NCBI GenBank assembly: GCA_021833625.1
Contig: JAKBEU010000002.1
Coordinates: forward strand, 1 to 64,000
Direction: 5' to 3'
Source of the DNA: a bacterium
Lineage (GTDB): Bacteria; Patescibacteriota; Microgenomatia; UBA1406; GWC2-37-13
DNA: 64,000 nt
This document shows, piece by piece, positions 8,061 to 20,296 of this stretch (position 1 is the stretch's first letter; every line of letters begins with the position of its first letter). The translations under genes and the position numbers were made by a program. Under the pieces are notes generated by a model that worked only from the letters and a program-made list of their open reading frames with translations, was not told where the DNA came from and made no database searches.

Positions 8061-8561
8061 ATGACAGTAAAAGGAATTGATTATGTTAAATCTGCCGAAC
8101 GATGGCAGGAATATGGAAGAAACTATCACAAAGAAGGTGTCATCTATTATGCTGAAGGAAATAAAACTGCTCTAGCAATTACAACTATCTTAATAGGCTT
8201 TATTGGAGTGTCATTACAGTTTGGTGATTTATTACATGGACCCATGTATAGAAAAGTTCTTATATTTCTTGCTTTTATTTCATCTCTTGTTACAGCTATC
8301 ACGGGATTACTTCTCTTTACAAAAATGAATGAATTCTTGAATAAGGCTGGTGACTATTATGAGAGATTGTCTGAAAATTTATTTCTATGGATGTTTAAAA
8401 ATAAAACAAATTATGGAGATAAATATCCAAAGGAAATCTATAAGGGGATAAATTTGGAAGTAACAATGAACAATATATTCTCACATATCCAAACTGGATC
8501 AGTCATAATTGCCTTTATTTGTATAACGATATACGTTGCAATTATTTTTTTTGGAAGGTAA
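8061..8561 (+). CDS. Small membrane protein with three transmembrane segments
   Basis: 166 aa. Layout: an N-terminal soluble helix (about 1-34), transmembrane segments at about 36-52 and 63-88, a soluble helical stretch (about 90-138), and a C-terminal transmembrane segment (about 143-164). No signal peptide. The two closely spaced membrane helices preceded by a helical YYHKEG-type N-terminus recall the SLATT family of 2TM effectors of nucleotide-signalling conflict systems, but I see no cyclase or SLOG partner, so this is only a suggestion. It has its own leaderless-type promoter and lies just upstream of the serine recombinase, on the same strand. Confidence 0.55.
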   Translation: MTVKGIDYVKSAERWQEYGRNYHKEGVIYYAEGNKTALAITTILIGFIGVSLQFGDLLHGPMYRKVLIFLAFISSLVTAITGLLLFTKMNEFLNKAGDYYERLSENLFLWMFKNKTNYGDKYPKEIYKGINLEVTMNNIFSHIQTGSVIIAFICITIYVAIIFFGR

Positions 8562-8615
8562 AAGAACTCACTTCTTCGCTTGACTTTAACATCCATTCCG
8601 ATACCCTTGAACTGT

Positions 8616-9935
8616 ATGAAGGATTGTCATGACAACATAAAGTATTGCTTATATGCTCGCAAATCGAGTGAATCAGATGAGCGTCAGGCGATGAGCATTG
8701 ATGGACAGCTGAGTGAAATGAAGAAGATGGCTAAGAAAGAAAGACTCAATGTAACATCAATAATTACGGAGAGTCATTCTGCAAAAGAATCAGGACAACG
8801 ACCAGAGTTTAATAATCTTCTCCAAGGCATAAACGAAGAGAAGTTTAACGCAATCCTTACTTGGGCCCCCGACCGCTTAAGTAGAAATGCAGGCGATTTA
8901 GGAAGAATTGTAGACCTGATGGATCAAGGAAAATTGCAAACCATTAGGACATATTCTCAATCATTCTCGAATAATCCAAATGAAAAGTTTCTTCTCATGA
9001 TCTTGTGTAGTCAAGCAAAATTAGAAAATGATAATCGAGGAGTAAATGTTAAGCGAGGATTACGAAATAAATGTGAGTATGGTATTCGACCAGGACTTGC
9101 TCCACTTGGTTATAAAAATGTTCTGAAGGCAAATAGAATATCCACTGTTTGCGTTGATGAAGTACGAGCACCAATAGTCAGAGAGATGTTTCTTAAAGTT
9201 GCAAATCAAGGGTTCTCGGGAAGAATGGTGAAGAAATGGTTGGACGATATCGGATATAGAACAAAAAATAATTGTATGATGCCTTTGAGTAAAGTATATG
9301 TTGCCCTGCGTAACTCTTTTTACTACGGAGAATTTATGTATGGGAATAAAAGATATAAGGGCAATTACGAACCTATAATTTCAAAGCAGATATTTGAGAA
9401 AGTCCAGATTCAACTTGAGGTTGCACCGAAGCAATGGAATAGACAACTATTTCCATTTAAAAAAATATGTAAGTGTGGGTCTTGTGGAGGGAGCGTTACA
9501 GCGGAAATTAAATACAAGCATTTGGTAAATAACAGAGTTCACTCTCATATTTATTATCACTGTAATCGCAAGAAAGATTACAAATGCAAAGAACCATATA
9601 TAACGGAAACTGAGTTAATCAAACAACTCGTCGTTCATCTACCAAATATAAAACTCAAAACCTCTTTTCTCCTATCCGAATTTCAGAATGAAATCTCGAG
9701 ATTAGAGCATATAAAAAATTCTGTATTAAAAGAAAGGAACTCTAAACTTGAGCTAACAAAATATAACGATGGGAATAATATTGTAACTCAACCAAAAGAA
9801 GATCAAATTCAAATGCTTAAAGATTATCTTCTACACGTACTGCAGTATGGAACACCTGAGGAAAGAATAAAGATTCTTAGCGGAGTAACTTCAAAATTTG
9901 AATTAATTCAAAGACAGATTGCTCTCTCTAAATAG
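8616..9935 (+). CDS. Large serine recombinase (site-specific integrase)
   Basis: 439 aa from the ATG at 8616; the open frame extends to 8580 but the conserved domain starts with YCLYARKSS just after this ATG. Order: resolvase catalytic domain (about 8-150) with the nucleophile serine in ARKSSESDERQ and the arginine motif DRLSRN; a Recombinase domain (about 165-270, GIRPGLAPLGY, NSFYYGEFMYG); a zinc beta-ribbon with C-K-C-G-S-C-G-G and later C-N-R-K-K-D-Y-K-C; then a helical coiled-coil C-terminus. This is the layout of phage and ICE integrases that insert and excise circular DNA without host factors. It lies next to the arsenic operons and is the best candidate for having brought them in. Its att site is not identified. 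Confidence 0.93.
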   Translation: MKDCHDNIKYCLYARKSSESDERQAMSIDGQLSEMKKMAKKERLNVTSIITESHSAKESGQRPEFNNLLQGINEEKFNAILTWAPDRLSRNAGDLGRIVDLMDQGKLQTIRTYSQSFSNNPNEKFLLMILCSQAKLENDNRGVNVKRGLRNKCEYGIRPGLAPLGYKNVLKANRISTVCVDEVRAPIVREMFLKVANQGFSGRMVKKWLDDIGYRTKNNCMMPLSKVYVALRNSFYYGEFMYGNKRYKGNYEPIISKQIFEKVQIQLEVAPKQWNRQLFPFKKICKCGSCGGSVTAEIKYKHLVNNRVHSHIYYHCNRKKDYKCKEPYITETELIKQLVVHLPNIKLKTSFLLSEFQNEISRLEHIKNSVLKERNSKLELTKYNDGNNIVTQPKEDQIQMLKDYLLHVLQYGTPEERIKILSGVTSKFELIQRQIALSK

Positions 9936-9955: not shown

Positions 9956-10002
9956 TTGACAAGTTGATGTATTATAAGTATGATATGAATGTTCATTCAT
10001 AT
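9956..10002 (+). promoter_or_regulatory. arsR1 promoter with ArsR-type operator
   Basis: TTGACA (9956-9961), a 17-nt spacer and TATGAT (9979-9984) form a near-consensus promoter. Overlapping the -10 and the transcription start lies a perfect inverted repeat, ATATGAATGTTCATTCATAT (9983-10002). This is the arm sequence expected for ArsR/SmtB-type repressors and is shared with the second arsR promoter at 14309-14330. Repressor bound here would block promoter opening and be released by As(III) or Sb(III). Confidence 0.8.
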
Positions 10003-10005
10003 CTT

Positions 10006-10332
10006 ATGGAACTAACAAAACTCTTTAAATTACTGTCAGATGAAAGCAAATACAAAATAGTGAAACATCTCATGAAAGGTGAAGAATGTGTTTGTACTAT
10101 TGCAGAGGAATTAGGGCTGGAACAATCATTGGTTTCTCATCATTTAAATAAACTTCGTGAAGCGGGGCTCATTATCGATCGCAAGGTTGGATCATGGATT
10201 CACTGTTCATTAAATAAGGACGTGTTTGACAAGCTGGAAAAAACGTTTATAAAAGAGTTCGCCATTACTAATATTAAAGACAAACCATGCTCCGAGCATG
10301 ATGTCTGTTGCGCCCTACCCAAAAAGATATGA
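10006..10332 (+). CDS. arsR: Arsenical-responsive repressor ArsR (operon A)
   Basis: 108 aa from the ATG at 10006; ATG 9985 lies within the promoter -10/operator and would precede the predicted transcription start, so it is less likely. A winged helix covers about 5-85. The metalloid-sensing motif E-C-V-C sits in the helix before the recognition helix (GEECVCTIAEELGLEQ, then SLVSHHLNKLREAG), as in the R773-type ArsR. The C-terminus adds further cysteines (KPCSEHDVCC), which could supply extra ligands. Function: homodimeric repressor that leaves the operator when As(III) binds the cysteines. Its stop overlaps the arsD start (ATGA), so it is the first gene of the operon it controls. Confidence 0.9.
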   Translation: MELTKLFKLLSDESKYKIVKHLMKGEECVCTIAEELGLEQSLVSHHLNKLREAGLIIDRKVGSWIHCSLNKDVFDKLEKTFIKEFAITNIKDKPCSEHDVCCALPKKI

Positions 10333-10631
10333 GCAAAAAAATAGTCGTATATGATCCTCCTATGTGTTGTTCTTCAGGAGTTTGTGGCCCTAACCCTGAT
10401 AAAACATTAATAGAGTTTCAGGAAATATTTACAAAATTAAAAAAATCAGGTACAGACATTGAGCGCTACGTGATAACACAGAGTCCTGAAAAATTTAAGG
10501 AGAATCCCGAAGTAATAAAGCTCATTCAACAACAACAATTGAAGGTATTGCCGGTGACTACTGTTAATGATGTGGTGGTAAAAACGGGAAGTTATCCAAC
10601 AAAAGATGAGTTTACAAGTTATTTGAAATAA
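10329..10631 (+). CDS. arsD: Arsenite metallochaperone ArsD
   Basis: 100 aa from the ATG at 10329, which overlaps the arsR stop. The N-terminus carries the diagnostic DPPMCCSSGVCGP, where the vicinal cysteine pair and the third cysteine correspond to Cys12, Cys13 and Cys18 of the R773 ArsD; these bind As(III) and pass it to the ArsA ATPase. The thioredoxin-like fold continues to the end (VLPVTTVNDVVVKTGSYPT). The C-terminal cysteine pairs of the plasmid R773 form are absent, which is the common chromosomal version. The gene is directly followed by arsA, its delivery partner, with a 2-nt gap. Confidence 0.93.
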   Translation: MSKKIVVYDPPMCCSSGVCGPNPDKTLIEFQEIFTKLKKSGTDIERYVITQSPEKFKENPEVIKLIQQQQLKVLPVTTVNDVVVKTGSYPTKDEFTSYLK

Positions 10632-10633
10632 AA

Positions 10634-12484
10634 ATGAAAACAAAATTCTATTTTTTCTCAGGAAAGGGCGGAGTAGGTAAAACTACAATGTCATGTGCCA
10701 CTGCAATCCACCTTGCAGAGCTTGGTAAAAAAACCCTTATTATCACGACCGATCCTGCATCAAACTTAGCAGATGTTTTTGAACAGTCAATTGGCCACAA
10801 AATCACCCCCATTGCCAAAGTAAATAATTTGTTTGCAATGGAGTTGGACCCTGATAAGGCTACTAATGAATATAAAGAAAAAACACTATCTCCCCTAAGA
10901 GGGCTCATTCCTGAAGAAAGCTTTAGAGTGCTTGAAGAACAATTAAGTTCCCCTTGCACTGCAGAGATGGCATCATTTGATCGATTTACTGACTTTGTTC
11001 AAGACGGGAATTTTGATATTGTTATTTTTGACACTGCGCCAACTGGTCACACGCTTCGACTATTGGAGTTGCCCGTGCAATGGAGTGGCGTTATCGAAAA
11101 AGCCGCAAAAGATGGCAGCGGAGGTCAAACATGCATCGGTCCTGCAGCCGCACTAGCCAATTCAAAAGCTAAGTTCGACCGGGCCATTGCTGCGATGAGA
11201 GATCCGGCAATAACAACCTTCATATTTGTTCTTCGTCCTGAGGCTACTCCCATATACGAAGCAAAAAGATCCATTGGAGAGCTGACAAAATTAGATATTA
11301 ATTCACAGGAGATCATTATTAATGGAGTCTATCCAATGGATGTGTGTGACAATCCATTTATGTTTGCTCGTTTCGTGAAACAACAGAAATTTTTGGAATC
11401 AATTAATGAGGAGTTCCAGGTCCCCGCAAAGATAATTGAACTAGGAGCAAGTGAGATTAAAGGAATCGATCTTTTGAGAGAAATCGGAAAAGAATTACAT
11501 ACTTCTCCACAACTCCTTTCAAATTATGTATTTAAAATATTAGCCGTTGAGAAGGCGACAATTTCAAATGTATATCCAAAACCAAACAATAAGATAAAAA
11601 AATTATTAACACCGCAAAAGAATAATAAACGACTTATCTTTTTTTCAGGAAAGGGCGGAGTAGGAAAAACATCCGTTTCAGCAGCAACAGCGTTGTGGAT
11701 TGCAAATGCAGGCTATAAGACACTTCTTTTGACCACGGACCCGGCGTCTCACTTAAAACAAGTTTTTAATCAAGAAGTAACTGATAAACCAACCCTATTG
11801 AGGGGAGAAAAAAACCTCTGGTTTACTCATATCGATGCAAAAGCAGCAACTGAGGAATATAAGGAGAATATTCTTAAGGAGGCACGAAAAAAATATGACG
11901 CAGAACGCATAATCGCAATTGAAGAGGAGCTCAATTCCCCGTGTACCGAAGAGATGGCGACGTTTGAGAAGTTCATACAGTTTGTAACACGCAAAGATTA
12001 TGAGGTTATCGTTTTTGATACTGCACCAACTGGACACACGTTGCGTTTACTCGAGCTTCCGGTTGATTGGAATAAACAACTTGAGATAAAAACATTCACT
12101 ACAACCGGGGAAACAGATGTTGATAAGAAAACCAAATCCCAATTCAAAGAGGTTATTGATTTACTTCAGGACCCAGAAAAGACGACATTTAGTTTTGTGA
12201 TGTATCCAGAATCAACGCCAATAGAGGAAGCATCTCGTGCAATGGATGAATTATTATCAATAAAGGTAAAAACAAGCCTCATAATTGCCAACCTCATTCT
12301 CCCCAAGTCATCGGTTACCAACGACTATTTGAGCCAAAGAAAGAAGATGCAGGAAAAATATCTCAAAGTAATGAAAAATCGTTTTACTGCTCCTATCGTT
12401 ACATTACCCCTATTAGTTGATGATCTCATGGGAACGGACAAGTTAAGAGAGGCTGGTTACTTATTATATGGAAAGAATTCATAA
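10634..12484 (+). CDS. arsA: Arsenite-transporting ATPase ArsA (two-domain form)
   Basis: 616 aa, the full two-domain ArsA. P-loops of the SGKGGVGKT type begin at residue 9 (A1) and residue 338 (A2); the switch motif DTAPTGHTLRLLELP occurs once in each half, and each half has a cysteine in SPCTAEMASF or SPCTEEMATF, matching metal-ligand cysteines (R773 Cys113 and Cys422). It drives ATP-dependent As(III) extrusion together with a membrane permease. No ArsB is encoded in operon A; an ACR3 or ArsB partner is not in the window, so the ATPase might couple to the ArsP-like or another permease, or the partner gene lies elsewhere. That gap is worth noting. Confidence 0.95.
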   Translation: MKTKFYFFSGKGGVGKTTMSCATAIHLAELGKKTLIITTDPASNLADVFEQSIGHKITPIAKVNNLFAMELDPDKATNEYKEKTLSPLRGLIPEESFRVLEEQLSSPCTAEMASFDRFTDFVQDGNFDIVIFDTAPTGHTLRLLELPVQWSGVIEKAAKDGSGGQTCIGPAAALANSKAKFDRAIAAMRDPAITTFIFVLRPEATPIYEAKRSIGELTKLDINSQEIIINGVYPMDVCDNPFMFARFVKQQKFLESINEEFQVPAKIIELGASEIKGIDLLREIGKELHTSPQLLSNYVFKILAVEKATISNVYPKPNNKIKKLLTPQKNNKRLIFFSGKGGVGKTSVSAATALWIANAGYKTLLLTTDPASHLKQVFNQEVTDKPTLLRGEKNLWFTHIDAKAATEEYKENILKEARKKYDAERIIAIEEELNSPCTEEMATFEKFIQFVTRKDYEVIVFDTAPTGHTLRLLELPVDWNKQLEIKTFTTTGETDVDKKTKSQFKEVIDLLQDPEKTTFSFVMYPESTPIEEASRAMDELLSIKVKTSLIIANLILPKSSVTNDYLSQRKKMQEKYLKVMKNRFTAPIVTLPLLVDDLMGTDKLREAGYLLYGKNS

Positions 12485-12493
12485 CTACTATTT

Positions 12494-12856
12494 ATGGATA
12501 CTAGAGTAACTACACTAATCCAAGAATTTTGTAACTACCTTGTCGAATACATACCTGAATTTCAGGAGTTGAAAGATGCAAAGGTAGGTCTCGAAAGCGA
12601 TTTGAATTCAAAGCAGCTCTGGGATGAAAAGGAAGAACAAAGAAACACTATTGATCTGTTGAAAAAGCAGGGATTGCCAACCAGTACGGAACAAGAAGCC
12701 AGTCTTGCCCAAAAGTTAAAGGAGATACGGGGAAATCCTATAACGATGCGATACCTTAAGGCGGTGAATGCGGCGAAAAAGGTATCTGGTCCAATAGGCA
12801 GTCAATTACAAATTAGTACAGGTGTAGATTTTAGCCCCAAAAAGGGGTGCAAATAA
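12494..12856 (+). CDS. YlbF-like helical protein, cysteine at the C-terminus (copy 1)
   Basis: 120 aa, all helical, with the long-helix pattern of the YlbF/YmcA (RicF/RicA) family: a helix about 3-25, a charged central part, and a C-terminal helix NPITMRYLKAVNAAKKV. YlbF-type proteins in Bacillus form the Ric complex acting with RNase Y; relatives elsewhere have no known role. It ends DFSPKKGCK, placing a lone cysteine at the extreme C-terminus. It stands between arsA and a second YlbF-like gene with 9-nt and 4-nt gaps, so it is clearly part of the arsenic operon. A thiol-based role in arsenic handling is inference from position and tail. Confidence 0.65.
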   Translation: MDTRVTTLIQEFCNYLVEYIPEFQELKDAKVGLESDLNSKQLWDEKEEQRNTIDLLKKQGLPTSTEQEASLAQKLKEIRGNPITMRYLKAVNAAKKVSGPIGSQLQISTGVDFSPKKGCK

Positions 12857-12860
12857 TAGT

Positions 12861-13232
12861 ATGAAAACTCAAACGATTGAAGCAAAAACAAAAGAGTACA
12901 TAGAATCATTAAAAGCGACTGAGGAAATATTGGCTTATAAAAAAGCATTGGACGATTTTGAGAATGATAATGAGGCAAAGAAATTACTCACCGACTATCA
13001 AGAAGCACAACAAACATACAACGTGTTCCGTCAAGGTGGTTTTGATGGATTGAAAGAAGTCGAGCAAAAAGCGAGAGATCTAAATTACAAACTGCAAAAG
13101 AACCAAAAAATACAGTCCTTAATTAAAACTCAACGATCTGCCCAATATCTTGTGGCAAATTTGGTAGATGACATAAGTCGGGGTATAAATATTCCCTTTG
13201 TTAAACCCCAACAGGGCGGGTGTTGCGGTTAA
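12861..13232 (+). CDS. YlbF-like helical protein with GGCCG tail (copy 2)
   Basis: 123 aa, YlbF/YmcA-like: [20 protein letters not shown], then [13 protein letters not shown] and [20 protein letters not shown] follow the usual three-helix plan. The C-terminus ends QQGGCCG, a vicinal cysteine pair on a glycine-rich flexible tail, the type of motif that binds As(III) in ArsD or mercury in merchaperones. It is paralogous to the preceding gene and lies 5 nt before arsM. A metalloid-binding or delivery role is inferred; alternatively the tail may only protect against oxidation. Confidence 0.7.
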
Positions 13233-13237
13233 CCAAT

Positions 13238-13972
13238 ATGAAAAATGTAAAGAAAACGGTAAGAAAAATGTATGGTCAAATTGCTACACAAAATACTTCC
13301 TGTTGCGGAGGTTCGTCATGTTGTGGAGGAGGTAACTTTGATGAAATGAGTAAAAAAATAGGATATTCCGATACTCAACTGGCAAATACTCCAAGTGGGG
13401 CAAATTTAGGCTTGGGATGTGGAAATCCACTTGCTATAGCATCAATAAAGCCTGGCGATATTGTATTGGACTTAGGATCAGGTGCGGGATTTGACTCGTT
13501 CTTGGCTTCTCGTAAAGTTGGTGAAACAGGAAAAGTCATTGGAGTCGATATGACCGATGAGATGATTAAAAAAGCGAGGGAAAATGCGGTCAAAGGCAAT
13601 ATAAAAAATGTTGAATTCAAAAAAGGAGATATTGAAGATCTTCCTGTAGATAGCGATTCGATTGATATTATTATCTCCAATTGCGTAATAAATCTTGCAC
13701 CAAATAAAGAAAGAGTATTTAAGGAGGCTTACCGAGTATTAAGGCCGGGTGGACGAATTATGATTTCTGACGTTGTTCTGTCAAAAGAACTTCCAGAGGA
13801 GCTAAAAAACGATGACAATCTTCTGGCTGGTTGTGTAAGCGGTGCTATCCTTAAAAAGGACTATTTAAGTATATTGAGCAAAGCTGGATTTTCAGAAGTT
13901 AAAATCACTAAGGAAATTCCTATGTTTTTGGACAAATATGCTTTAAGCATTACTTTTTCAGCGGTAAAGTAA
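13238..13972 (+). CDS. arsM: Arsenite S-adenosylmethionine methyltransferase ArsM
   Basis: 244 aa from the ATG at 13238 ([13 protein letters not shown]). Class I methyltransferase with the SAM motif [12 protein letters not shown] and post-motif [15 protein letters not shown]. The catalytic cysteines of the family are visible: GLGCGNP (Cys72 equivalent), SNCVINL (Cys174 equivalent) and LLAGCVSGA (Cys224 equivalent). The N-terminus adds [12 protein letters not shown], two vicinal pairs on a glycine linker, as in several bacterial ArsM proteins. It methylates As(III) to MAs(III) and DMAs(III), more toxic or volatile forms whose export would then fall to the permeases of operon B. The open frame upstream to 13220 overlaps the previous gene and is not needed. 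Confidence 0.95.
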
Positions 13973-13973
13973 T

Positions 13974-14138
13974 ATGAAAAAAATTATAACCTCTTTTATT
14001 AAAAGTGCGGTTTCTGGATTTAAAGAAGCATACCCTCATTTATTTCCACCAAAGAATCAAAAAGAATTTGATGCATATGTAGAGTCCTTAAGAAGGAAGG
14101 GTGGAGGTTGTAAGCCAGGAGGAGGGTGTTGTGGATAG
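13974..14138 (+). CDS. Cysteine-tailed microprotein 1 of the ars operon
   Basis: 54 aa, ATG one base after the arsM stop. The sequence starts MKKIITSFIKSAVSGFKEAY, an amphipathic helix, and ends KGGGCKPGGGCCG: three cysteines on a glycine-rich tail very like that of the YlbF copy just upstream. I know no named family. The shared GFKEA helix with the next small gene (GFKEAYPH here, GFKEAFLS there) suggests the two are paralogues. The start overlaps nothing but is coupled to arsM; the stop lies inside the next gene's start. It is probably an As(III)-binding peptide or chaperone accessory; this is inference. Confidence 0.7.
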   Translation: MKKIITSFIKSAVSGFKEAYPHLFPPKNQKEFDAYVESLRRKGGGCKPGGGCCG

Positions 14139-14265
14139 AGAAAAGCTAATGGATACATTAATGACAAAGATTAAAGATCCGTATTTTTACGTACGACTTC
14201 TTAAAAATATGTATAAAGGCTTTAAGGAGGCATTCCTCAGTTTTCTTCCTTGTTGTTTAAAGTAA
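14131..14265 (+). CDS. Cysteine-tailed microprotein 2 of the ars operon
   Basis: 44 aa from the GTG at 14131, which overlaps the preceding stop by 8 nt and has a strong purine-rich ribosome-binding site (GGAGGAGGG) in front. Helical, with KNMYKGFKEAFLSFLPCCLK at the C-terminus; the vicinal cysteine pair is two residues from the end. The GFKEA motif is shared with microprotein 1. It is the last gene of operon A: 15 nt later the second arsR promoter begins. No family is recognised; coding status rests on the tight coupling, good initiation signals and the shared motif. Confidence 0.6.
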   Translation: MDREKLMDTLMTKIKDPYFYVRLLKNMYKGFKEAFLSFLPCCLK

Positions 14266-14280
14266 GTATAGAAATCCCCA

Positions 14281-14333
14281 TTGACAGAGGGTATCCAGTG
14301 GAGTAAACTATATGAATATGAGTTCATATAGTT
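14281..14333 (+). promoter_or_regulatory. arsR2 promoter with ArsR-type operator
   Basis: TTGACA (14281-14286), exactly 17 nt, then TAAACT (14304-14309). An 11-bp perfect inverted repeat, AACTATATGAA (14306-14316) and TTCATATAGTT (14323-14333) with a 6-nt spacer, overlaps the -10 and start site. Its core ATATGAA-N6-TTCATAT is identical to that of the operator at 9983-10002, so the two ArsR proteins probably share targets and cross-regulate. Confidence 0.85.
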
Positions 14334-14620
14334 GCTGTACGTCGTTAACCAAGGAATCAAAACAAGTCACATCCTTATCATCTCTCCTAAGGCTTGTTTC
14401 TGAAGAAAGCAGGCTCAGATTACTTTGTGTTTTACAGAAAGGTGAGCATTGCGTCTGCGAGATGATGGAACATGTTAATCTTTCACAAAGCTTAATTTCT
14501 CATCACCTGAAAGACCTTAAGGATGCGGGCATTGTGGAAGATAAAAAGAAAGGCCTTCGTGTTTATTACTCGCTCACAAAAAAAGGAGAAAAAATTATTA
14601 ATTTATTATTTACTTTATGA
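14318..14620 (+). CDS. arsR: Arsenical-responsive repressor ArsR (operon B)
   Basis: 100 aa from the ATG at 14318 (an ATG two codons upstream at 14312 is also possible). The -10 box ends 8 nt before 14318, so the mRNA is probably leaderless. Winged-helix repressor with the metalloid motif H-C-V-C in GEHCVCEMMEHVNLSQ followed by the recognition helix SLISHHLKDLKDAG. An additional N-terminal pair (SSYSCC) may add a thiol ligand. It differs clearly from the operon A repressor in sequence but shares its operator. The stop overlaps the next start by 4 nt. Confidence 0.9.
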   Translation: MSSYSCCTSLTKESKQVTSLSSLLRLVSEESRLRLLCVLQKGEHCVCEMMEHVNLSQSLISHHLKDLKDAGIVEDKKKGLRVYYSLTKKGEKIINLLFTL

Positions 14621-14865
14621 AAATTCAAGTATTGGGAAGCGGATGTCCTACCTGCAAGAAGTTATATGAAATTACCCAGAAAGCCGTAATAGAAATGGGG
14701 CTAAAAGATAAGGTTGAATATCTGAGTGGCACAGAAGGTATGCAAGCATTGATAGAAAAAGGTGTTATGAGTAGCCCAGCCCTTGCCGTGGATGACAAAG
14801 TTGTTATGACAGGCTTTACACCAGATATTGAGAAGATAAAGAAATTTATTAAAAGTACAAAATAA
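14617..14865 (+). CDS. arsE: ArsE-like small thioredoxin-fold protein (CPTC)
   Basis: 82 aa, thioredoxin fold with the active site GCPTCKK at residues 9-15 and the cis-proline segment MSSPALAVDD. This is the redox-active disulfide protein 2 type. Because arsF and arsG follow in the same operon, it most likely corresponds to ArsE, which with ArsF is reported to be needed for reduction of nitroaromatic arsenicals such as roxarsone before ArsG exports the product. Without that context it would be called only a small thioredoxin. It overlaps the arsR2 stop (ATGA) and is 2 nt from the permease gene. Confidence 0.75.
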   Translation: MKIQVLGSGCPTCKKLYEITQKAVIEMGLKDKVEYLSGTEGMQALIEKGVMSSPALAVDDKVVMTGFTPDIEKIKKFIKSTK

Positions 14866-14867
14866 CA

Positions 14868-15848
14868 ATGGATATATTTAAGCCTGTTCAACTCTTTGCT
14901 GATCTTGCAACTTATCAGTGGTTCCGAATAATTCCTCATTCATATTGGGGCGATACAATCAATTTCTTTATTTATGACACGATAAAGATTGGACTGCTAC
15001 TTATTGTTATCAATTATTTTATGGCCTTTACCCGCTACTACTTTCCAATGGAGAAAGTACGGAATTTACTTCTTAAGCGTCGATGGTTTGGATTGGATTA
15101 TCTTTTTGCGGCATTTCTTGGTGTAGTCACACCCTTTTGTTCTTGTTCCTCAATCCCACTTTTTATTGGATTTGTAGGAGCAGGGATTCCGCTTGGAGTA
15201 ACTTTTGCCTTTCTTATCAGCTCACCACTTGTGAATGAATCGTCTCTTTATCTTTTCCCTGCAATGTTTGGGATGAAAGTAACTATTATCTATAATGTTG
15301 TAGGAATGCTAATTGCAATAGTAGGAGGATTTATTATCCAGAAGCTTGGAATGGAAAAGTATATCAAGCCAGAACTTCTTAAATTCAAGTCAAGAGTACA
15401 AGTAGAACAAGAAAACGGAGGAACGCCACTTCCACTAATTGAACTACTAAAGTACTTCTGGACTGATGGGATGAATATAACCAAAAGTGTCTTTCCTTAT
15501 GTGTTATTAGGAGTAGGAATCGGAGCTCTTATTCATGGCTTTGTCCCCGCTTCTTTGGTAGCAAAGTATTTGTCAAATAAATCATGGTGGGCCGTACCAG
15601 TTGCCACACTTCTTGGAGCACCGCTTTATGCAAACTCAGTGAGTGTAATTCCTGTTATGGAAGCTCTTGTCCAAAAAGGAGTTCCTTTGGGGACAGCACT
15701 CGCATTTATGACCGCAATAGTTACTGTATCTATTCCAGAATCGATGATTTTAAAGAAAGTCATGAAATGGCAACTGTTAGCTGCATTCTTTGGCATAACA
15801 ATTATTGGAATAATGATAATGGGATGGATCTTTAACGCTATTTTATAA
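14868..15848 (+). CDS. ArsP-like permease (DUF318 family)
   Basis: 326 aa with eight or so transmembrane helices. The signature TPFCSCSSIPLFIGFVGAGI (about residues 85-104) marks the DUF318 permease family and matches the TPFCSCS motif of ArsP, the exporter of trivalent methylarsenite and aromatic arsenicals; the paired cysteines are its likely substrate site. A second conserved half-motif, LGAPLYANSVSVIPVMEAL, lies near residue 250. It is placed between the ArsE-like and ArsF proteins and downstream of an operon with ArsM, so MAs(III) produced by ArsM is a natural substrate. Other members of the family export different soft-metal or thiol compounds, so the specificity is inferred. Confidence 0.75.
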   Translation: MDIFKPVQLFADLATYQWFRIIPHSYWGDTINFFIYDTIKIGLLLIVINYFMAFTRYYFPMEKVRNLLLKRRWFGLDYLFAAFLGVVTPFCSCSSIPLFIGFVGAGIPLGVTFAFLISSPLVNESSLYLFPAMFGMKVTIIYNVVGMLIAIVGGFIIQKLGMEKYIKPELLKFKSRVQVEQENGGTPLPLIELLKYFWTDGMNITKSVFPYVLLGVGIGALIHGFVPASLVAKYLSNKSWWAVPVATLLGAPLYANSVSVIPVMEALVQKGVPLGTALAFMTAIVTVSIPESMILKKVMKWQLLAAFFGITIIGIMIMGWIFNAIL

Positions 15849-15863
15849 ATTCAGTTCTTGAAT

Positions 15864-16358
15864 ATGAAATTCAGCAAACAAAATGTTTTCTTTGGGATTA
15901 TGATTCTGATTCTTGTTGGTCTTATCATAAATGAGCTTTTACCAAAAAAGGAAATAGTGTTAAAGGAAGATGTACAAAAGGTTCAAACTGTTGCTACGGG
16001 AGGAGTAGATGAGGTCCCTCAAATAAAAAAAGCAGATAAGATTATCATTGCCAACTTTCATGCAACACAAAGATGTGCTTCCTGCACTGCGCTTGGAAGA
16101 CTATCTGAAAAGACGGTGTCAGAGCAATTTGCAAATGAAATAGCGAGTGGAAAAATGGAGTTTAAATCTATCAACGTTGATCTTCCAGAAAATGAGGAGA
16201 TGATGAATCTCTATCAAGCAAGCGGGTCTTCTCTCTATATAAATGCCATTAAGGACGGAAAAGATAATATCGTTAAAAACATGAAAGTATGGCAGTATTT
16301 AACAGATGATCAGGCGTTTGTAAATTATCTCTCAACACAACTTAAGACGTTACTATAA
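15864..16358 (+). CDS. arsF: ArsF-family nitroreductase subunit, membrane anchored
   Basis: 164 aa from the ATG at 15864 (an in-frame TTG lies two codons upstream). One N-terminal membrane helix (about 7-23, NVFFGIMILILVGLIINEL), then an extracytoplasmic or cytoplasmic thioredoxin-like domain with the family motif FHATQRCASCTALG, in which the CxxC pair is conserved. This motif is characteristic of proteins annotated as the nitrophenyl compound nitroreductase subunit ArsF. ArsF acts with ArsE on nitro-substituted aromatic arsenicals. The gene ends 2 nt before arsG, the usual order in arsEFG loci. Confidence 0.85.
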   Translation: MKFSKQNVFFGIMILILVGLIINELLPKKEIVLKEDVQKVQTVATGGVDEVPQIKKADKIIIANFHATQRCASCTALGRLSEKTVSEQFANEIASGKMEFKSINVDLPENEEMMNLYQASGSSLYINAIKDGKDNIVKNMKVWQYLTDDQAFVNYLSTQLKTLL

Positions 16359-16360
16359 CA

Positions 16361-17092
16361 ATGGATATAACACGTCTTATTTATGGATTTATAGATTCAC
16401 ATAACATTCCCTTGTTATCAGCGTTTCTTATTGGTTTGCTTACCTCAATAAGCCCCTGTCCTCTTGCAACAAATATTACCGCCATTGCTTATATATCGAA
16501 AGATATAAAAAAGCCAAAGAACACCATTTTAAATGGTCTATTTTACACATCAGGGAGGGCTATAAGTTATTCACTTCTTGCGACTCTTATCTATTTTGGA
16601 CTTTCAACATTTAAGGTGTCTCGACTCTTTCAAGGATGGGGAGATAAAGTCCTTGGCCCAATCCTAATCATTCTTGGCCTGATTATGCTTGATGTAATAA
16701 AACTAAATGTAAAAACAAACAATCAGCCTATTGAGAAATTCAAAATATGGATTGCAACAAAAGGATATGTGGGAGCTCTTCTTTTAGGGATGTTGTTTGC
16801 TTTCGCCTTTTGCCCTTATAGTGGGGTGCTTTTCTTTGGAGTTCTAATTCCCCTTATTCTAAAATCAAAGGAAGCATTATTGCTCCCTCCTTTGTTCGCG
16901 ATTGGCACAGGTTTACCAGTTATTCTCTTCTCATTTCTTATTGCTTTTAGTATAAAGAAGATGAGTAAGGCATTTACTATTGTTTCTAAAATTGAAAAGA
17001 TAACACGGTATGTAGTTTCTTCAACATTCATAATTGTAGGCATATATTACACACGAATTTTAGTTTTGTATTTTATTACTTTATCTAGATGA
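16361..17092 (+). CDS. arsG: ArsG-type efflux permease of the DsbD/CcdA family
   Basis: 243 aa, six predicted membrane helices. The first repeat carries LTSISPCPLATNITAIAYIS and the second AFAFCPYSGVLFFG, the cysteine-proline motifs of the CcdA/DsbD transmembrane domain; in ArsG proteins the first reads SPCPLATN. Family knowledge: ArsG exports trivalent amino- and nitro-aromatic arsenicals formed by ArsE and ArsF. Position directly after arsF supports this over a role in cytochrome biogenesis or disulfide transfer. Its stop overlaps the chrA start by 4 nt. Confidence 0.85.
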   Translation: MDITRLIYGFIDSHNIPLLSAFLIGLLTSISPCPLATNITAIAYISKDIKKPKNTILNGLFYTSGRAISYSLLATLIYFGLSTFKVSRLFQGWGDKVLGPILIILGLIMLDVIKLNVKTNNQPIEKFKIWIATKGYVGALLLGMLFAFAFCPYSGVLFFGVLIPLILKSKEALLLPPLFAIGTGLPVILFSFLIAFSIKKMSKAFTIVSKIEKITRYVVSSTFIIVGIYYTRILVLYFITLSR

Positions 17093-18297
17093 ATAAACCA
17101 ACCTTCAAAGAATTTGCAAAGACTATTCTCTATATCGGCTTCACGGGGTATGGAGGACCAGCGGTGCTTGGTCAAATGAAGAAAAAAATAGTCCATAAGA
17201 AAGAATGGGTTACTGAGGAAGAGTTTATGAATTCTCTTAGTTTGGCAGACATCCTTCCTGGAGCAACAGGTGTGACTCTCCTTGGGTATTTGGGATACAA
17301 GGTGAAAGGAGTTGGAGGGTGGATACTTGGGGCGGGACTGTATGTACTTCCCGCATTTCTTTTCACTACGATAATTGCCCAATTCTATTTTCAGTACAAC
17401 AACATTAGTTTTGTTCAAAAAATATTCACAGGTCTTGGGGCACTCGTTGTTGCTCTGTTGATTAATGCACTTATGAATTTGAGTAAGCCAGTTTTTGGCA
17501 AAATTGGAAAACACTGGATTAAAGCAATGGTTATTGCAATACCTGCATTTCTTCTTGCTTTTTTCACTCAAATAAATGCCTCATTCATATATCTATTATC
17601 GGGGTCGCTGGGATTTATTTTGTACTATTTTATGAATGATGTGAGAGTTGAGAAAGAGACGGTAGGACAAATAAAGAAGGAGAGAAAAGAAAAAGTAATA
17701 TGGGGCAATATTTTTAAATCACACTTTACCTATTTGCTAATTGGGATAGTCTGTATTGGTTTATCACTTTGGTATTTTATTCCAACAGCAGGACTACTTA
17801 TCACTTCCTTTATCCACATGGGTACTTTTGCACTCGGCTCGGGATTTAGTGTTATACCTTTAATGAAGTCAATGACTGTTGACCAAAATCATTGGGTAAC
17901 GCTCAAACAATTCCAAGATGGATTGGCGGTGGGTCAGATAACTCCTGGACCAGTGCTTATTACTGCTGCATTTATCGGATATAAAGTAATGGGATGGGCT
18001 GGAGCAATTGTCGCTACAGTATCTATTTTCCTCCCCTCGCTTGTATTAATCGTAATCTTTGGAGGATTTCACGAACGAATCAAGCATCTCAAATCTGTTA
18101 AAGTGGTAATCAAGGGGTTTCTTGCGGGCTTTATAGGTATTATTAGTGCAATTGCTCTTCAGTTTGGAGAGAAGTCACTCGTCAATTGGCAGACATGGGT
18201 AATCTTTTTTGCATCACTTATTTTGGTTGTTAAATTCAAAAAGGATGTTCTGTGGGTTATCCTCGGAACAATTATCATTTCACTTCTTATATTTTAA
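17089..18297 (+). CDS. chrA: Chromate efflux transporter ChrA (two CHR domains)
   Basis: 402 aa with two homologous halves, the long-chain ChrA form. Each half starts with the CHR pattern: FAKTILYIGFTGYGGPAVLG with LADILPGATGVTLLGYLGYK in the first, and HMGTFALGSGFSVIPLM with GLAVGQITPGPVLITAAFIG in the second. About ten membrane helices. ChrA proteins export chromate by proton-driven exchange. The gene is coupled to arsG upstream and to the CDF exporter 2 nt downstream, so it is under ArsR2 control here; chromate and arsenate often occur together, or this transporter may handle another oxyanion. Confidence 0.9.
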   Translation: MNKPTFKEFAKTILYIGFTGYGGPAVLGQMKKKIVHKKEWVTEEEFMNSLSLADILPGATGVTLLGYLGYKVKGVGGWILGAGLYVLPAFLFTTIIAQFYFQYNNISFVQKIFTGLGALVVALLINALMNLSKPVFGKIGKHWIKAMVIAIPAFLLAFFTQINASFIYLLSGSLGFILYYFMNDVRVEKETVGQIKKERKEKVIWGNIFKSHFTYLLIGIVCIGLSLWYFIPTAGLLITSFIHMGTFALGSGFSVIPLMKSMTVDQNHWVTLKQFQDGLAVGQITPGPVLITAAFIGYKVMGWAGAIVATVSIFLPSLVLIVIFGGFHERIKHLKSVKVVIKGFLAGFIGIISAIALQFGEKSLVNWQTWVIFFASLILVVKFKKDVLWVILGTIIISLLIF

Positions 18298-18298
18298 T

Positions 18299-19180
18299 AT
18301 GAAAGAAAAAAATCTACTTATATCAATCGGGATTAATATCGTTATAACGGTAGTCGAAATCATAGTGGGATTACTTATCGGGAGTCTGGCAATCATTTCT
18401 GATGCAGTTCACAACTTCTTTGATGTGGGAGCTATGGTGATGAGCCTGTTTGGGGAACGGGCAAGCTCAAAGAAAATCGACACAAAGCATTCTTATGGTT
18501 ATAAACGAGCAGAGATCCTCGTTGCCCTTCTCAATAGTGTCTTTCTTCTTGTTTCTATAATCGTTATCGGATACGAGGCAATTCAGCGATTCATTCATCC
18601 TCAAACAGTTGAGGGAGGATGGATGCTGATAATGGCTATTGTTGCCTTTGCTGGGAATATGATAGCAACAAAATTATTACATGACCATGTTGAGGAAAGT
18701 ATGAATATAAAGTCCGCCTTTCTCCACTCTCTGCAAGATGCGTTGTTTTCTGCGGGAGTAATTATGGCAGCAATCCTGGTGTTGGTTTTTAATTGGCAAT
18801 GGGCAGATGCGGGTATTTCATTGATATTATCAGTACTACTTGCCAAAGAAGCTGTGACGTTGATTCTTGAAACTCTACACGTCCTTATGGAGGGAGTCCC
18901 AACAGACATAGACATTGAAAAATTGAAGAAAGATTTACTGTCGATTGAAGGGATCGTGTCGGTTGAGGATTTACATGTGTGGAAGACAGGATCAAAAGAT
19001 ATACTTCTCACATCGCATATCGTTTCTGATGGACTATCATCTGATATTTTATATGCGGAGAAACTTACGGCGATTAAACAGACGCTGTTATCGACATATA
19101 AAATCAATCACTCCACAATCCAACTTGTTCCAGTTGGTGTGGGAGAAAAACTAAAGGATTTATGTAAACACTGTAGTTAA
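18299..19180 (+). CDS. Cation diffusion facilitator (CzcD/ZitB type)
   Basis: 293 aa from the ATG at 18299, one base after the chrA stop. Six membrane helices and a C-terminal cytoplasmic ferredoxin-like domain (about 205-280). The transport-site motifs are present: SDAVHNFFDVG in helix 2 and HSLQDALFSAG in helix 5, both HxxxD, with HSYGYKRAEIL of the CzcD subfamily between helices 2 and 3. It exports Zn2+, Co2+ or Cd2+ by proton exchange. The protein ends in LCKHCS, a further cysteine-histidine tail. It is the last gene of operon B. Confidence 0.92.
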   Translation: MKEKNLLISIGINIVITVVEIIVGLLIGSLAIISDAVHNFFDVGAMVMSLFGERASSKKIDTKHSYGYKRAEILVALLNSVFLLVSIIVIGYEAIQRFIHPQTVEGGWMLIMAIVAFAGNMIATKLLHDHVEESMNIKSAFLHSLQDALFSAGVIMAAILVLVFNWQWADAGISLILSVLLAKEAVTLILETLHVLMEGVPTDIDIEKLKKDLLSIEGIVSVEDLHVWKTGSKDILLTSHIVSDGLSSDILYAEKLTAIKQTLLSTYKINHSTIQLVPVGVGEKLKDLCKHCS

Positions 19181-19199
19181 AGAAATATTTTATTTCTTT
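19179..19199. terminator. Possible bidirectional terminator between CDF and DUF2892 genes
   Basis: AAAGAAATA-TTT-TATTTCTTT is a perfect 9-bp inverted repeat spanning both stop codons of two convergent genes. It is A/T only, so termination strength is uncertain. Confidence 0.4.
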
Positions 19200-19393
19200 T
19201 CCATCGTTGAGATTCCAAGGACTTTATATAATCCACAGAATCCAATTGCTCCAGTTACAAGAGCTATTACTCCCACAATACCAGCAATAATTTGAGCTGC
19301 TCCAGTGAGATTAAAAAAAGCTAATCCCAATAAAATAATTCCCAACACAATACGAATTATGCGATCTGTTTTTCCTTCATTTGTTTTTAACAT
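19190..19393 (-). CDS. DUF2892 (YgaP membrane-domain-like) small membrane protein
   Basis: 67 aa from the ATG at 19393 (MLKTNEGKTDRIIRIVLGI, the canonical start of the family); an ATG three codons upstream (MCPMLK) is possible. Two membrane helices: VLGIILLGLAFFNLTGAAQI and ALVTGAIGFCGLY, each in the standard DUF2892 pattern NxGxxDRxxR followed by glycine-rich helices. DUF2892 forms the membrane part of YgaP rhodanese proteins and often accompanies sulfur or metal stress genes. It is transcribed divergently from the PadR-type regulator, with which it may share control. Confidence 0.85.
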   Translation of the reverse strand: MLKTNEGKTDRIIRIVLGIILLGLAFFNLTGAAQIIAGIVGVIALVTGAIGFCGLYKVLGISTMEKK

Positions 19394-19425
19394 AGGACAC
19401 ATAAGTAAATGTATAAAAATTGTAA

Positions 19426-19469
19426 TTGACAAAATCATTATACTATAATAAACTTACATATAGTTAAGT
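19426..19469 (+). promoter_or_regulatory. padR promoter with short inverted repeat
   Basis: TTGACA (19426-19431), 17 nt, TAAACT (19449-19454), the same -10 as the arsR2 promoter. ACTTA (19452-19456) and TAAGT (19465-19469) form a short inverted repeat with 8-nt spacing overlapping the start site, a possible operator. The divergent DUF2892 gene reads from the other side. Confidence 0.5.
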
Positions 19470-19479
19470 AAATCAATAT

Positions 19480-19821
19480 ATGAGAACCAATTGCTCACAA
19501 GTAGTCGTAGAAAACTTTTTTGAACCAGGGATGTTGTATTTACTGTTGAAAAAACCCAGTTATGGTTATGAAATACAAAAAGCTTTGAAAGAAAGCTGTA
19601 TCTGCGAGGTAAATATAGGAAACCTCTATCGTTGTCTATCAAGAATGCAAAAACAAGGGTATGTTACTCGAGAATCAATAAAGGGAACGATAGGACCAAA
19701 ACGATATAGTTATACGATCACGAAAGAAGGGAAAACATATTTATCCTCTTGGATAGAGTCATTAAAGAAACAAAAGAAAGTTATCAGTTCATTAATTAAT
19801 AATTACCAAAAAATAGTATGA
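19480..19821 (+). CDS. PadR-family regulator with cysteine-rich N-terminus
   Basis: 113 aa. The winged-helix core of PadR is clear: EPGMLYLLLKKPSYGYEIQK, the recognition region VNIGNLYRCLSRMQKQGYV and the wing GPKRYSYTITKEGK. Typical PadR proteins sense phenolics or toxins, but this one has unusual thiols: C5 near the N-terminus and C-I-C (ESCICEVNIGNLYRC) directly in front of the recognition helix, where ArsR uses C-V-C. A metalloid- or thiol-sensing version is therefore likely, by inference. The C-terminal dimerisation helix is short. The gene overlaps the glutaredoxin gene by 4 nt. Confidence 0.75.
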   Translation: MRTNCSQVVVENFFEPGMLYLLLKKPSYGYEIQKALKESCICEVNIGNLYRCLSRMQKQGYVTRESIKGTIGPKRYSYTITKEGKTYLSSWIESLKKQKKVISSLINNYQKIV

Positions 19822-20051
19822 AAACAGTAAAAGTCTTTTCAACCCCCACATGTCCCTATTGCCATATGGCGAAAGATTATCTAAAAAACAAAAAAGTACT
19901 CTTTGAAGACATTGATGTCTCACAGGATCAAAATCAAGCAAGAGCAATGGTAGAAAGATCCGGAGAAATGGGTGTTCCACAACTTTGGATAGACGACCAA
20001 ATAGTTATCGGCTTCAATAAGCCAGTAATAGATGAGCTTTTGGGACTTTAA
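19818..20051 (+). CDS. Glutaredoxin-like protein (NrdH/Grx type)
   Basis: 77 aa with the CPYC active site in TPTCPYCHMAKDYL and the glutaredoxin GSH-loop pattern MGVPQLWIDDQIVIGFNKP. Small thiol-disulfide oxidoreductase. It may reduce arsenate-type substrates, recycle the thiol regulators, or supply electrons to other enzymes. Its start overlaps the PadR-type gene stop (ATGA), so that regulator probably controls it. It is the last gene of the resistance island before the tRNA remnant. Confidence 0.88.
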   Translation: MKTVKVFSTPTCPYCHMAKDYLKNKKVLFEDIDVSQDQNQARAMVERSGEMGVPQLWIDDQIVIGFNKPVIDELLGL

Positions 20052-20296
20052 CTTAGTAGCTATTGTTAATGGAGAAGGGATTCGAACGAAACTTCACAAA
20101 CATTGGAGAAGGGTGCAACAACCCAAATAATACAAAAAGGTTAGAACCAACGACATTTCCCTTGAGGGCTTTTTAGGCTGTTTTTCATTCTACAGGACTG
20201 TATTGGGAGTATTGATGTTTCTGATTATTTTTCAGCAAGCCCCAATGGGCCAATCTGAGAGGGTTGAAGGGTCTAGTAGGACTTTCTATCAAAATG
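20052..20296. other. Non-coding stretch at the island's right edge
   Basis: No supported gene. It contains GGAGAAGGG twice (20071-20079 and about 20104-20112) and, at 20070-20088, a sequence that reads on the minus strand like a tRNA T-arm and acceptor end (see separate entry). It lies between the last island gene and an intact tRNA gene, as expected for an insertion boundary. Confidence 0.45.
20070..20088 (-). repeat. tRNA 3'-end remnant, possible attachment-site half
   Basis: Read on the minus strand, it gives GTTCGAATCCCTTCTCCA: a T-loop (TTCGAATC) followed by a plausible 3' acceptor strand and discriminator base, but no D-arm or anticodon arm follows upstream. A truncated tRNA end is a classic mark left by integration at a tRNA gene. 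The other copy is not visible in the window. Confidence 0.35.

Follow-up and report, generated by a model that had tools for sequence, protein, structure and literature searches.

An arsenic island with ArsA, Cys-tailed YlbF-family proteins and no ArsB or ACR3, very probably the cargo of a tRNA-Ser integrative element in a Candidate Phyla Radiation-type genome

The window analyzed here, comprising the first 64 kb of contig 1 (C1, JAKBEU010000002.1) of a bacterial genome assembled into three contigs, contains an arsenic and metal resistance island of two operons (10006-20051). This island fills the interval between a large serine recombinase and a sequence arm that reaches the 3' end of a tRNA-Ser gene, and it is very probably the cargo of an integrative element of Candidate Phyla Radiation (CPR)-type genomes. 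The noteworthy part is the first operon, which encodes the ATPase ArsA and two Cys-tailed YlbF-family proteins in a genome that lacks both ArsB and ACR3. We lean, by a little, towards an overall interpretation in which an island carried by a tRNA-associated element handles arsenite without a permease, using ArsA, the Cys tails and the methyltransferase ArsM; for the permease-less handling taken alone, the case is close to evenly balanced.

As the available accounts describe them, knock-outs in Halobacterium NRC-1 left unexplained how ArsA protects cells without ArsB. HcsL-type proteins, which neighbor ArsA both in permease-less bacteria and in NRC-1, thus provide a concrete candidate for such protection, while the element marks a route that can be traced, one along which resistance cargo could pass between bacteria with very small genomes. 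The genome itself (1,095,652 bases, or 1.10 Mb, at 99.56% completeness) fits the CPR type because of its small size and because ribosomal protein L30, present in 13 of 14 control genomes, was not found in it. To our knowledge, L30 is absent from CPR bacteria.

Gene content of the island

Gene families were assigned by profile searches (NCBIfam/TIGR and Pfam) against curated cut-offs. The results agree with the families and coordinates given for the two operons in a preliminary description of this DNA, and the gene set is real. That description did not mention the gene at 13974-14138, which at 54 residues fell below the 60-residue limit of the open reading frame list; with it, the cargo comprises 17 genes. 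In the list below, bit scores are followed by cut-offs where these apply. Comparison genomes and loci are numbered with G and L, respectively.

9956..9984, plus strand: promoter-like TTGACA-17-TATGAT ahead of the first operon (11/12 matches)
9983..10002, plus strand: probable ArsR operator (candidate), a palindrome with 9-bp arms ATATGAATG / CATTCATAT
10006..10332, plus strand: ArsR1 (NF033788, 84.9 bits; start set by comparison with G085)
10329..10631, plus strand: ArsD (NF033727, 114 bits, cut-off 90)
10634..12484, plus strand: ArsA, two ATPase halves, three presumed metal-site Cys conserved (profile and alignment)
12494..12856, plus strand: YlbF-family protein 1, tail KKGCK (PF06133, 28.9 bits, cut-off 23.9)
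12861..13232, plus strand: YlbF-family protein 2, HcsL-like, tail GGCCG (PF06133, 54.3 bits; NF041416, 59 bits)
13238..13972, plus strand: ArsM arsenite methyltransferase (NF008823, 357.6 bits, cut-off 263; start by eye)
13974..14138, plus strand: 54-residue protein directly after ArsM, Cys tail FDAYVESLRRKGGGCKPGGGCCG
14309..14330, plus strand: ArsR-type palindrome where ArsR2 begins, same type as 9983-10002
14312..14620, plus strand: ArsR2 (NF033788, 85.4 bits)
14617..14865, plus strand: ArsE-type thioredoxin (TIGR00412, 74.9 bits, cut-off 62)
14868..15848, plus strand: ArsP_1-family permease (PF03773, 196.9 bits, cut-off 32.3)
15858..16358, plus strand: ArsF (NF040494, 96.2 bits, cut-off 60)
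16361..17092, plus strand: ArsG (NF040495, 290.3 bits, cut-off 200)
17089..18297, plus strand: chromate transporter ChrA (TIGR00937, 225.5 bits, cut-off 171.7)
18299..19180, plus strand: CDF cation efflux protein (TIGR01297, 269.2 bits, cut-off 82.35; start by eye)
19190..19438, minus strand: YgaP-like membrane protein (PF11127, 79.7 bits)
19480..19821, plus strand: PadR regulator (PF03551, 63.2 bits, cut-off 27)
19818..20051, plus strand: glutaredoxin-like protein (PF00462, 72.5 bits, cut-off 22.9)

Each operon has a TTGACA promoter-like site together with an ATATGAA...TTCATAT palindrome, and the promoter scan as a whole returned 38 sites against 36.2 in shuffled sequences, no excess over chance. 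By eye, a box similar to the palindrome at 9983-10002 precedes ArsR in L006 (from G085), L010, L015, L016 and L023, and a different box occupies this position in L012-L014. Profile scans of the island proteins found no ArsC, as had been noted before; a genome-wide search for ArsC was not made.

ArsA without ArsB or ACR3

The ArsA protein passes the cut-off for the TRC40/GET3/ArsA family (TIGR00345, 485.5 bits, cut-off 135) and does not reach those for the TIGR04291 equivalog (517.6 bits, cut-off 650) or the haloarchaeal form NF041417 (655.3 bits, cut-off 800). It contains two PF02374 stretches, and three of its cysteines align with those of the solved ArsA 9nbl, which we take to be the metal site. 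The system thus resembles an ArsRDABC arsenite pump in having ArsR, ArsD and a two-domain ArsA with these cysteines, and differs from it in that the genome has no ArsB or ACR3 and the island no ArsC.

Permeases were sought in 13 genomes, which cover 12 of the 16 ArsA loci together with this genome (G000) and G085. The earlier observation that no ArsB or ACR3 permease is visible for ArsA holds for the whole of this genome. ACR3 was not found in any of the ten ArsA-carrying genomes of at most 1.1 Mb (G000, G085, G096-G102 and G106; three are labelled with a CPR lineage and five with none, and G085 belongs to the same class as the window), of which only G000 and G085 have a known completeness. 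All three larger ArsA carriers encode ACR3 (G103, below cut-off, G104 and G105), and ArsB was found in none of the 13. The island had also been described as a set as complete as those of free-living bacteria; this claim fails, because the first operon includes no known arsenite permease, a lack shared by the other small-genome ArsA carriers searched.

According to the passages on NRC-1 in two sources (PMC3600143, PMC1447603), deletion of arsADRC raises arsenite sensitivity and loss of arsB has no effect, and a novel arsenite pump was proposed in reviews for this reason. It may be that ArsA likewise drives another exporter here, such as an ArsP- or ArsG-type permease or a P-type ATPase, in place of ArsB or ACR3, with the Cys-tailed proteins as accessory chaperones. 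The genes for ArsP, ArsG and the CDF protein are part of this cargo and share its type of ArsR palindrome, and heavy-metal P-type ATPases are located near ArsA in L009, L013, L014, L023 and G085 (by eye). However, no one membrane protein sits beside ArsA in all of the small-genome loci read (by eye), and ArsP is common across the family in genomes that lack ArsA, so that an alternative exporter is possible but doubtful.

Several observations nevertheless tell against permease-less handling. ArsA may pair with a membrane protein that is not recognized as such, and haloarchaea and Omnitrophota can have an ACR3-type gene beside the set. Four ArsA loci (L017, L019, L020 and L022) lie outside the permease search, and the limited knowledge of completeness noted above also bears on the ten small genomes. 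With regard to the YlbF-family proteins, L009 has ArsA without one, and five Chloroflexota ArsA loci yielded none, although L017 is readable for just 0.7 kb past ArsA. Conversely, HcsL-like proteins occur apart from this ArsA in G311 (L091, 9690-10055), next to a P-type ATPase and with only one Cys in the tail (RCGR), and in G308 (L092, 9604-9975), where the protein stands alone and has the tail GGCCGGGCCSH. The terminal Cys pair is therefore not universal.

A probable integrative element at tRNA-Ser

The genes and sites assigned to the element flank the island on both sides.

2810..3622, plus strand: family-less protein ahead of MT1, without a PHROG match
3709..5001, plus strand: ParB-like / DNA methyltransferase, MT1 (PHROG 498, 313 bits)
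4919..5743, plus strand: second DNA methyltransferase, MT2 (PHROG 498, 215 bits)
5740..6279, plus strand: helix-turn-helix protein resembling a terminase small subunit (PHROG 4102, E 1.4e-6, weak)
7465..7998, plus strand: small membrane/lipoprotein-like element gene (PHROG 806, 117 bits)
8616..9935, plus strand: large serine recombinase, or integrase (PHROG 95, 201 bits)
20060..20295, plus strand: attachment arm, reaching the 3' end of the tRNA; its left edge is approximate; homologous stretch in L075-L077 and L123-L125
20296..20383, minus strand: tRNA-Ser(CGA), intact, 3' end toward the element

Three IMG/VR contigs (L075, L076 and L077) encode recombinases with 70-71% identity to that of the window, and a close recombinase (E<=1e-120) is present in 31 of 372 genomes of the class, this genome counted. 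The distance between recombinase and arm is 79 bp in L075, 782 in L076, 1063 in L077, 927 in L123, 79 in L124 and 716 in L125, compared with 10,185 bp in the window, where the arsenic genes occupy it; the cargo slot of the element therefore lies between recombinase and arm. An arm model seeded with the window and L075-L077 was run on 20 further recombinase loci, drawn from 18 of the 30 other genomes with a close recombinase, and was positive in the three with the closest recombinases (L123, L124 and L125). Where arm and tRNA-Ser can both be seen, in five loci (the window, L076, L123, L124 and L125), the arm starts 163-176 bp from the tRNA, whose 3' end points to the element. A minus-strand tRNA occurs within 2.9 kb in 16 of the 20 further loci (12 Ser, 2 Glu, 1 Asp and 1 Lys); two of the four that have none end within 0.8 kb.

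Horizontal gain had been proposed from the adjacent recombinase and a presumed tRNA remnant at the right edge. The recombinase and the position of the cargo, between an integrase and an arm that reaches a tRNA 3' end, bear this out. The supposed remnant at 20070-20087 belongs instead to the element arm, since it has no second copy in the genome (allowing two mismatches) and matches the sequence that follows the recombinase in L075 (by eye); the tRNA-Ser(CGA) beyond it is intact. It may be that the element is still mobile today.

Other genes of the element recur as well. In the 12 kb ahead of the recombinase, the 20 further loci contain MT1 homologues in 11 cases, terminase-small-like genes in 12 and large-terminase homologues in nine. 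MT1 is also 42-46% identical to proteins of eight IMG/VR contigs, and the 7465..7998 protein has homologues encoded ahead of the recombinase in L075, L130, L137 and, weakly, L139. In L080, L083 and L137, proteins of similar size occupy the position of the 2810..3622 gene, a likeness of size and place alone.

The terminase-like gene, the phage-type methyltransferases, the integrase and the deposition of related contigs as viral in IMG/VR could suggest a prophage of the usual kind that had acquired a resistance island. However, no capsid, portal or tail gene was recognized among eight window proteins scanned against PHROGs, a scan made with the left end unplaced, and in G725, where two arm copies lie about 9.6 kb apart, no capsid or other structural gene was recognized between them by eye. 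We thus consider an ordinary prophage unlikely. Serine-integrase prophages and phage satellites share the PHROG 95 integrase, methyltransferases and terminase-like genes with the window element, which differs from them in its target (a tRNA 3' end), in having no recognized capsid genes and in its cargo slot between integrase and arm.

The attribution of the island to an integrative element has its own difficulties. The arm model has no match in the other 17 of the 20 further loci, seven of the 20 have no methyltransferase or terminase gene in the 12-kb stretch ahead of the recombinase, and the large terminase subunit is absent from the window. The left end of the window element, with its left attachment site, was also not found: in an exact-match search of 14 stretches, G725 alone yielded a persuasive repeat (24 bp), with 12 bp in G009 and two matches of 11 bp in the genome studied here, and a scored comparison of 16 cores supported only G725 (29/32, against at most 22 for shuffled cores). 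A 14-bp inverted match lies close to the end of contig 3.

Among loci with the same kind of recombinase, L127, L128 and L141 have P-type ATPase genes upstream of it, which suggests that metal cargo may recur in these elements. In L134 (G638), a 902-residue gene is located between recombinase and tRNA-Ser. A more distant serine recombinase (203 bits, minus strand) is found at 2043-3854 of L023, where it overlaps a tRNA-Leu about 5.5 kb before an ArsRDA operon.

YlbF-family proteins and Cys tails

Two YlbF-family proteins with Cys tails are encoded downstream of ArsA. The second falls short of the HcsL profile cut-off (140 bits for NF041416) and shares with HcsL the YlbF domain, the terminal Cys-Cys and the place beside ArsA, features chosen here from annotated haloarchaeal proteins. 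A terminal Cys-Cys is present in all ten aligned HcsL-like rows, at 27-66% identity to the window protein; these rows represent small-genome bacteria, Omnitrophota and haloarchaea (the window, G085, L008, L013, L014, L016, L023 and three haloarchaea). An HcsL-like profile run on 379 genomes of the phylum recovered two more, those of G311 and G308 discussed above. Where both YlbF proteins are present (the window, G085, L008 and L023), all four pairs have one terminal Cys on the first protein and Cys-Cys on the second, or three thiols. In L010 and L015, only the first type was seen, and there it ends in Cys-Cys. Altogether, a YlbF protein follows ArsA in ten loci (the window, G085, L008, L010, L011 (partial), L013-L016 and L023), all from small-genome bacteria or Omnitrophota; L012 and L022 end too early to tell. 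The gene after the split ArsA of an Alicyclobacillus plasmid, considered as a possible YlbF-like gene, is not one by eye.

Similar tails are not limited to YlbF proteins. The FmdB-like proteins (named by eye) of G085, L010, L016 and L009 share a common Cys tail with the 54-residue protein, and C-terminal Cys-Cys occurs on ArsD in L017, L019 and L021 and on ArsE in L052, L054 and L055. Among the distinct predicted proteins of all loci gathered, four plasmid loci left out and up to two residues allowed after the pair, terminal Cys-Cys was counted in 26 of 365 proteins encoded no more than 5 kb from ArsA or ArsP and in three of 1395 elsewhere (Fisher p 1.6e-15), a value that is only a guide because the loci were picked via ArsA, ArsP and other queries and because the count contains homologues, a fragment that duplicates another entry (L001) and a reading frame that overlaps another (L040), all of which weaken the case for the tails. 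One Omnitrophota locus (L016, 6938-14541) has two ACR3-like genes, both below cut-off, around ArsA, along with an HcsL-like protein, ArsM and a Cys-tailed FmdB-like protein.

The HcsL-like protein is predicted to have a YlbF fold. Its model has a mean predicted local distance difference test score of 87.6, falling below 50 in the tail (118-123), and the best hit in a fold search was RicA/RicF (6prk_A; probability 1.00, template modeling scores 0.77/0.82, E 0.002), with none at 0.001. In the available text on the Ric proteins, the C-terminal cysteines of RicF and RicA ligate a [4Fe-4S] cluster shared with RicT (PMC6751060), and YlbF is treated as a biofilm gene in the part of another study that mentions it (PMC6016940). 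By analogy with the shared cluster, the two YlbF proteins of the window could build a thiolate site for As(III) at their interface. The window pair resembles Bacillus RicA/RicF (YmcA/YlbF) in predicted fold, in being paired paralogues and in having metal-ligand cysteines near the C terminus, and differs in its arsenic operon context, in vicinal cysteines at the very end and in having no RicT seen alongside.

Given the fold match and the cluster-ligating tails of RicF and RicA, the pair could instead hold an iron-sulphur cluster or act on RNA decay, its place in the operon being incidental. However, the same neighbors, ArsA and often ArsM, recur in small-genome bacteria, Omnitrophota and haloarchaea, and Cys-Cys tails are found on the FmdB-like proteins, ArsD and ArsE of such loci too; a Ric-like role is accordingly quite improbable.

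In haloarchaea, Halobacterium NRC-1 included, ArsA is followed by HcsL homologues that end in Cys-Cys. The gene order on pNRC100 is arsD-arsA-hcsL-hcsS-arsR-arsM (with arsR2 as the regulator gene), which like the window has ArsD-ArsA, then a YlbF-type Cys-Cys protein, then ArsM, in a cluster where ArsB is reported, in the passages cited above, to have no role. NRC-1 ArsA is 42% identical to that of the window. HcsL is the first of two small genes in NRC-1, whereas the HcsL-like gene is the second in the window. HcsS of NRC-1 has 62 residues, and three haloarchaeal HcsS proteins are 16-19% identical to YlbF protein 1 over a short alignment, and are thus at most putative homologues of it. The passages on arsenic in NRC-1 do not mention HcsL or HcsS (PMC3600143, PMC1447603), and neither "HcsL" nor "halo-CC-star" was found among the literature matches listed. 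HcsL and HcsS are candidates for arsenite handling without ArsB in NRC-1.

A possible route for arsenite

In the permease-less handling favored here, ArsR would sense arsenite and ArsD would pass it to ArsA. With ATP, ArsA would then load arsenite onto the thiolate site formed by the YlbF tails (one Cys plus two Cys), perhaps assisted by the 54-residue Cys-tail protein. Arsenite would be kept on the tails or given to ArsM rather than to a channel, and methylated products might exit by diffusion or through the ArsP/ArsG-type exporters of the second operon. The serine recombinase, for its part, would direct integration to the 3' ends of tRNA genes, in most cases those for tRNA-Ser.

A more far-reaching version, which we put forward tentatively and consider unlikely to hold in full, is that ArsA does not serve as a pump motor in these bacteria or in haloarchaea but works as an ATP-driven loader with a logic like that of Get3. 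It would place arsenite onto a three-thiolate site to which a RicAF-like pair of YlbF proteins contributes its C-terminal tails, and Cys-Cys tails would act as a transferable arsenite tag on at least four unrelated small-protein families (YlbF, FmdB-like, ArsD and ArsE). The same version has arsenic sets spreading in CPR bacteria on a family of tRNA-Ser serine-integrase elements, which is conceivable with a similar degree of doubt.

Distribution and history of the two operons

The two operons differ in history. ArsA matches at E<=1e-40 occur in three of 379 genomes of the phylum, one at merely 36% identity, and among 96 relatives a full match is found only in this genome and in G085 (79%), the match in G053 covering 79 residues at 37%. 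Phylogenetically, the window ArsA clusters with those of L008, L023 and G085 (94/100 in the ArsA tree), and L012-L014 cluster with L011 (94/98). L012-L014 encode a related recombinase (47-49%) directly before ArsR, and the arm model has no match in them. Since they and the window fall in separate ArsA groups, the linkage of recombinase and ars genes probably has at least two origins, or was lost in others; L008, whose sequence is cut at ArsA, is uninformative on this point. A search of IMG/VR viral contigs, aimed at close relatives only, gave seven pattern-matching stretches and no ArsA relative.

The second operon is not exotic in the family, because ArsP genes are present in 18 of 60 family genomes (this genome and both same-genus genomes included) and a second ArsR-ArsE-ArsP copy is located on contig 2, with 94% protein identity for ArsP and 83% identity in DNA. 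Its ArsE, ArsF and ArsG, all above NCBIfam cut-offs, resemble arsEFG-type organoarsenical genes; the ArsP_1 permease alongside is a difference, though not an unusual one given how common ArsP is in the family. ArsP occurs together with ArsF and ArsG in G009 and G042. The contig 2 copy (L029, 241000-260999) is accompanied by PadR, a YgaP-like protein and a thioredoxin-glutaredoxin fusion.

Genes of the right flank are retained in G001 and G002, two genomes of the same genus, with neither the island nor the tRNA there, which favors the reading as element cargo; by eye, a metal ABC operon takes the island's place, and the G002 contig stops about 0.6 kb away.

Assembly and base composition

The preliminary description proposed comparing base composition and codon use on the two sides of the window. 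GC content is indeed lower on the left (0.370 in the cargo and 0.362 at 1-9935, against 0.401 at 20384-64000), as is third-position GC (0.33 for the island against 0.39), but the contrast is only modest, because ten of 42 two-kb windows right of the island lie at or below 0.389, the highest value of any island window.

The end of contig 3 and the start of contig 1, which is the left end of the window, overlap exactly by 91 nt, and the end of contig 2 and the start of contig 3 by 127 nt; the end of contig 1 resembles the start of contig 2 (by eye). The 91-mer is also found inside contig 2, within a GIY-YIG gene repeat, which explains the contig break and makes the contig 3-contig 1 joint the natural but not the sole option; the joint is probable rather than certain. 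Some 3 kb ahead of it, GC declines from roughly 0.40 to values of 0.33-0.37. Although the window starts at a contig end, its first 20 kb are lower in GC and the 91-nt joint is a repeat, an assembly chimera at the contig start is highly improbable, because contig ends overlap exactly and the order of recombinase, cargo, arm and tRNA recurs in other genomes, and low GC lies on either side of the joint.

The GIY-YIG repeat of L029 has stretches in common with the first 410 bases of the window. Next to these, at 558-2672 on the minus strand, a protein of 704 residues weakly matches the model of the anti-phage protein ProA (79.8 bits, cut-off 1500).

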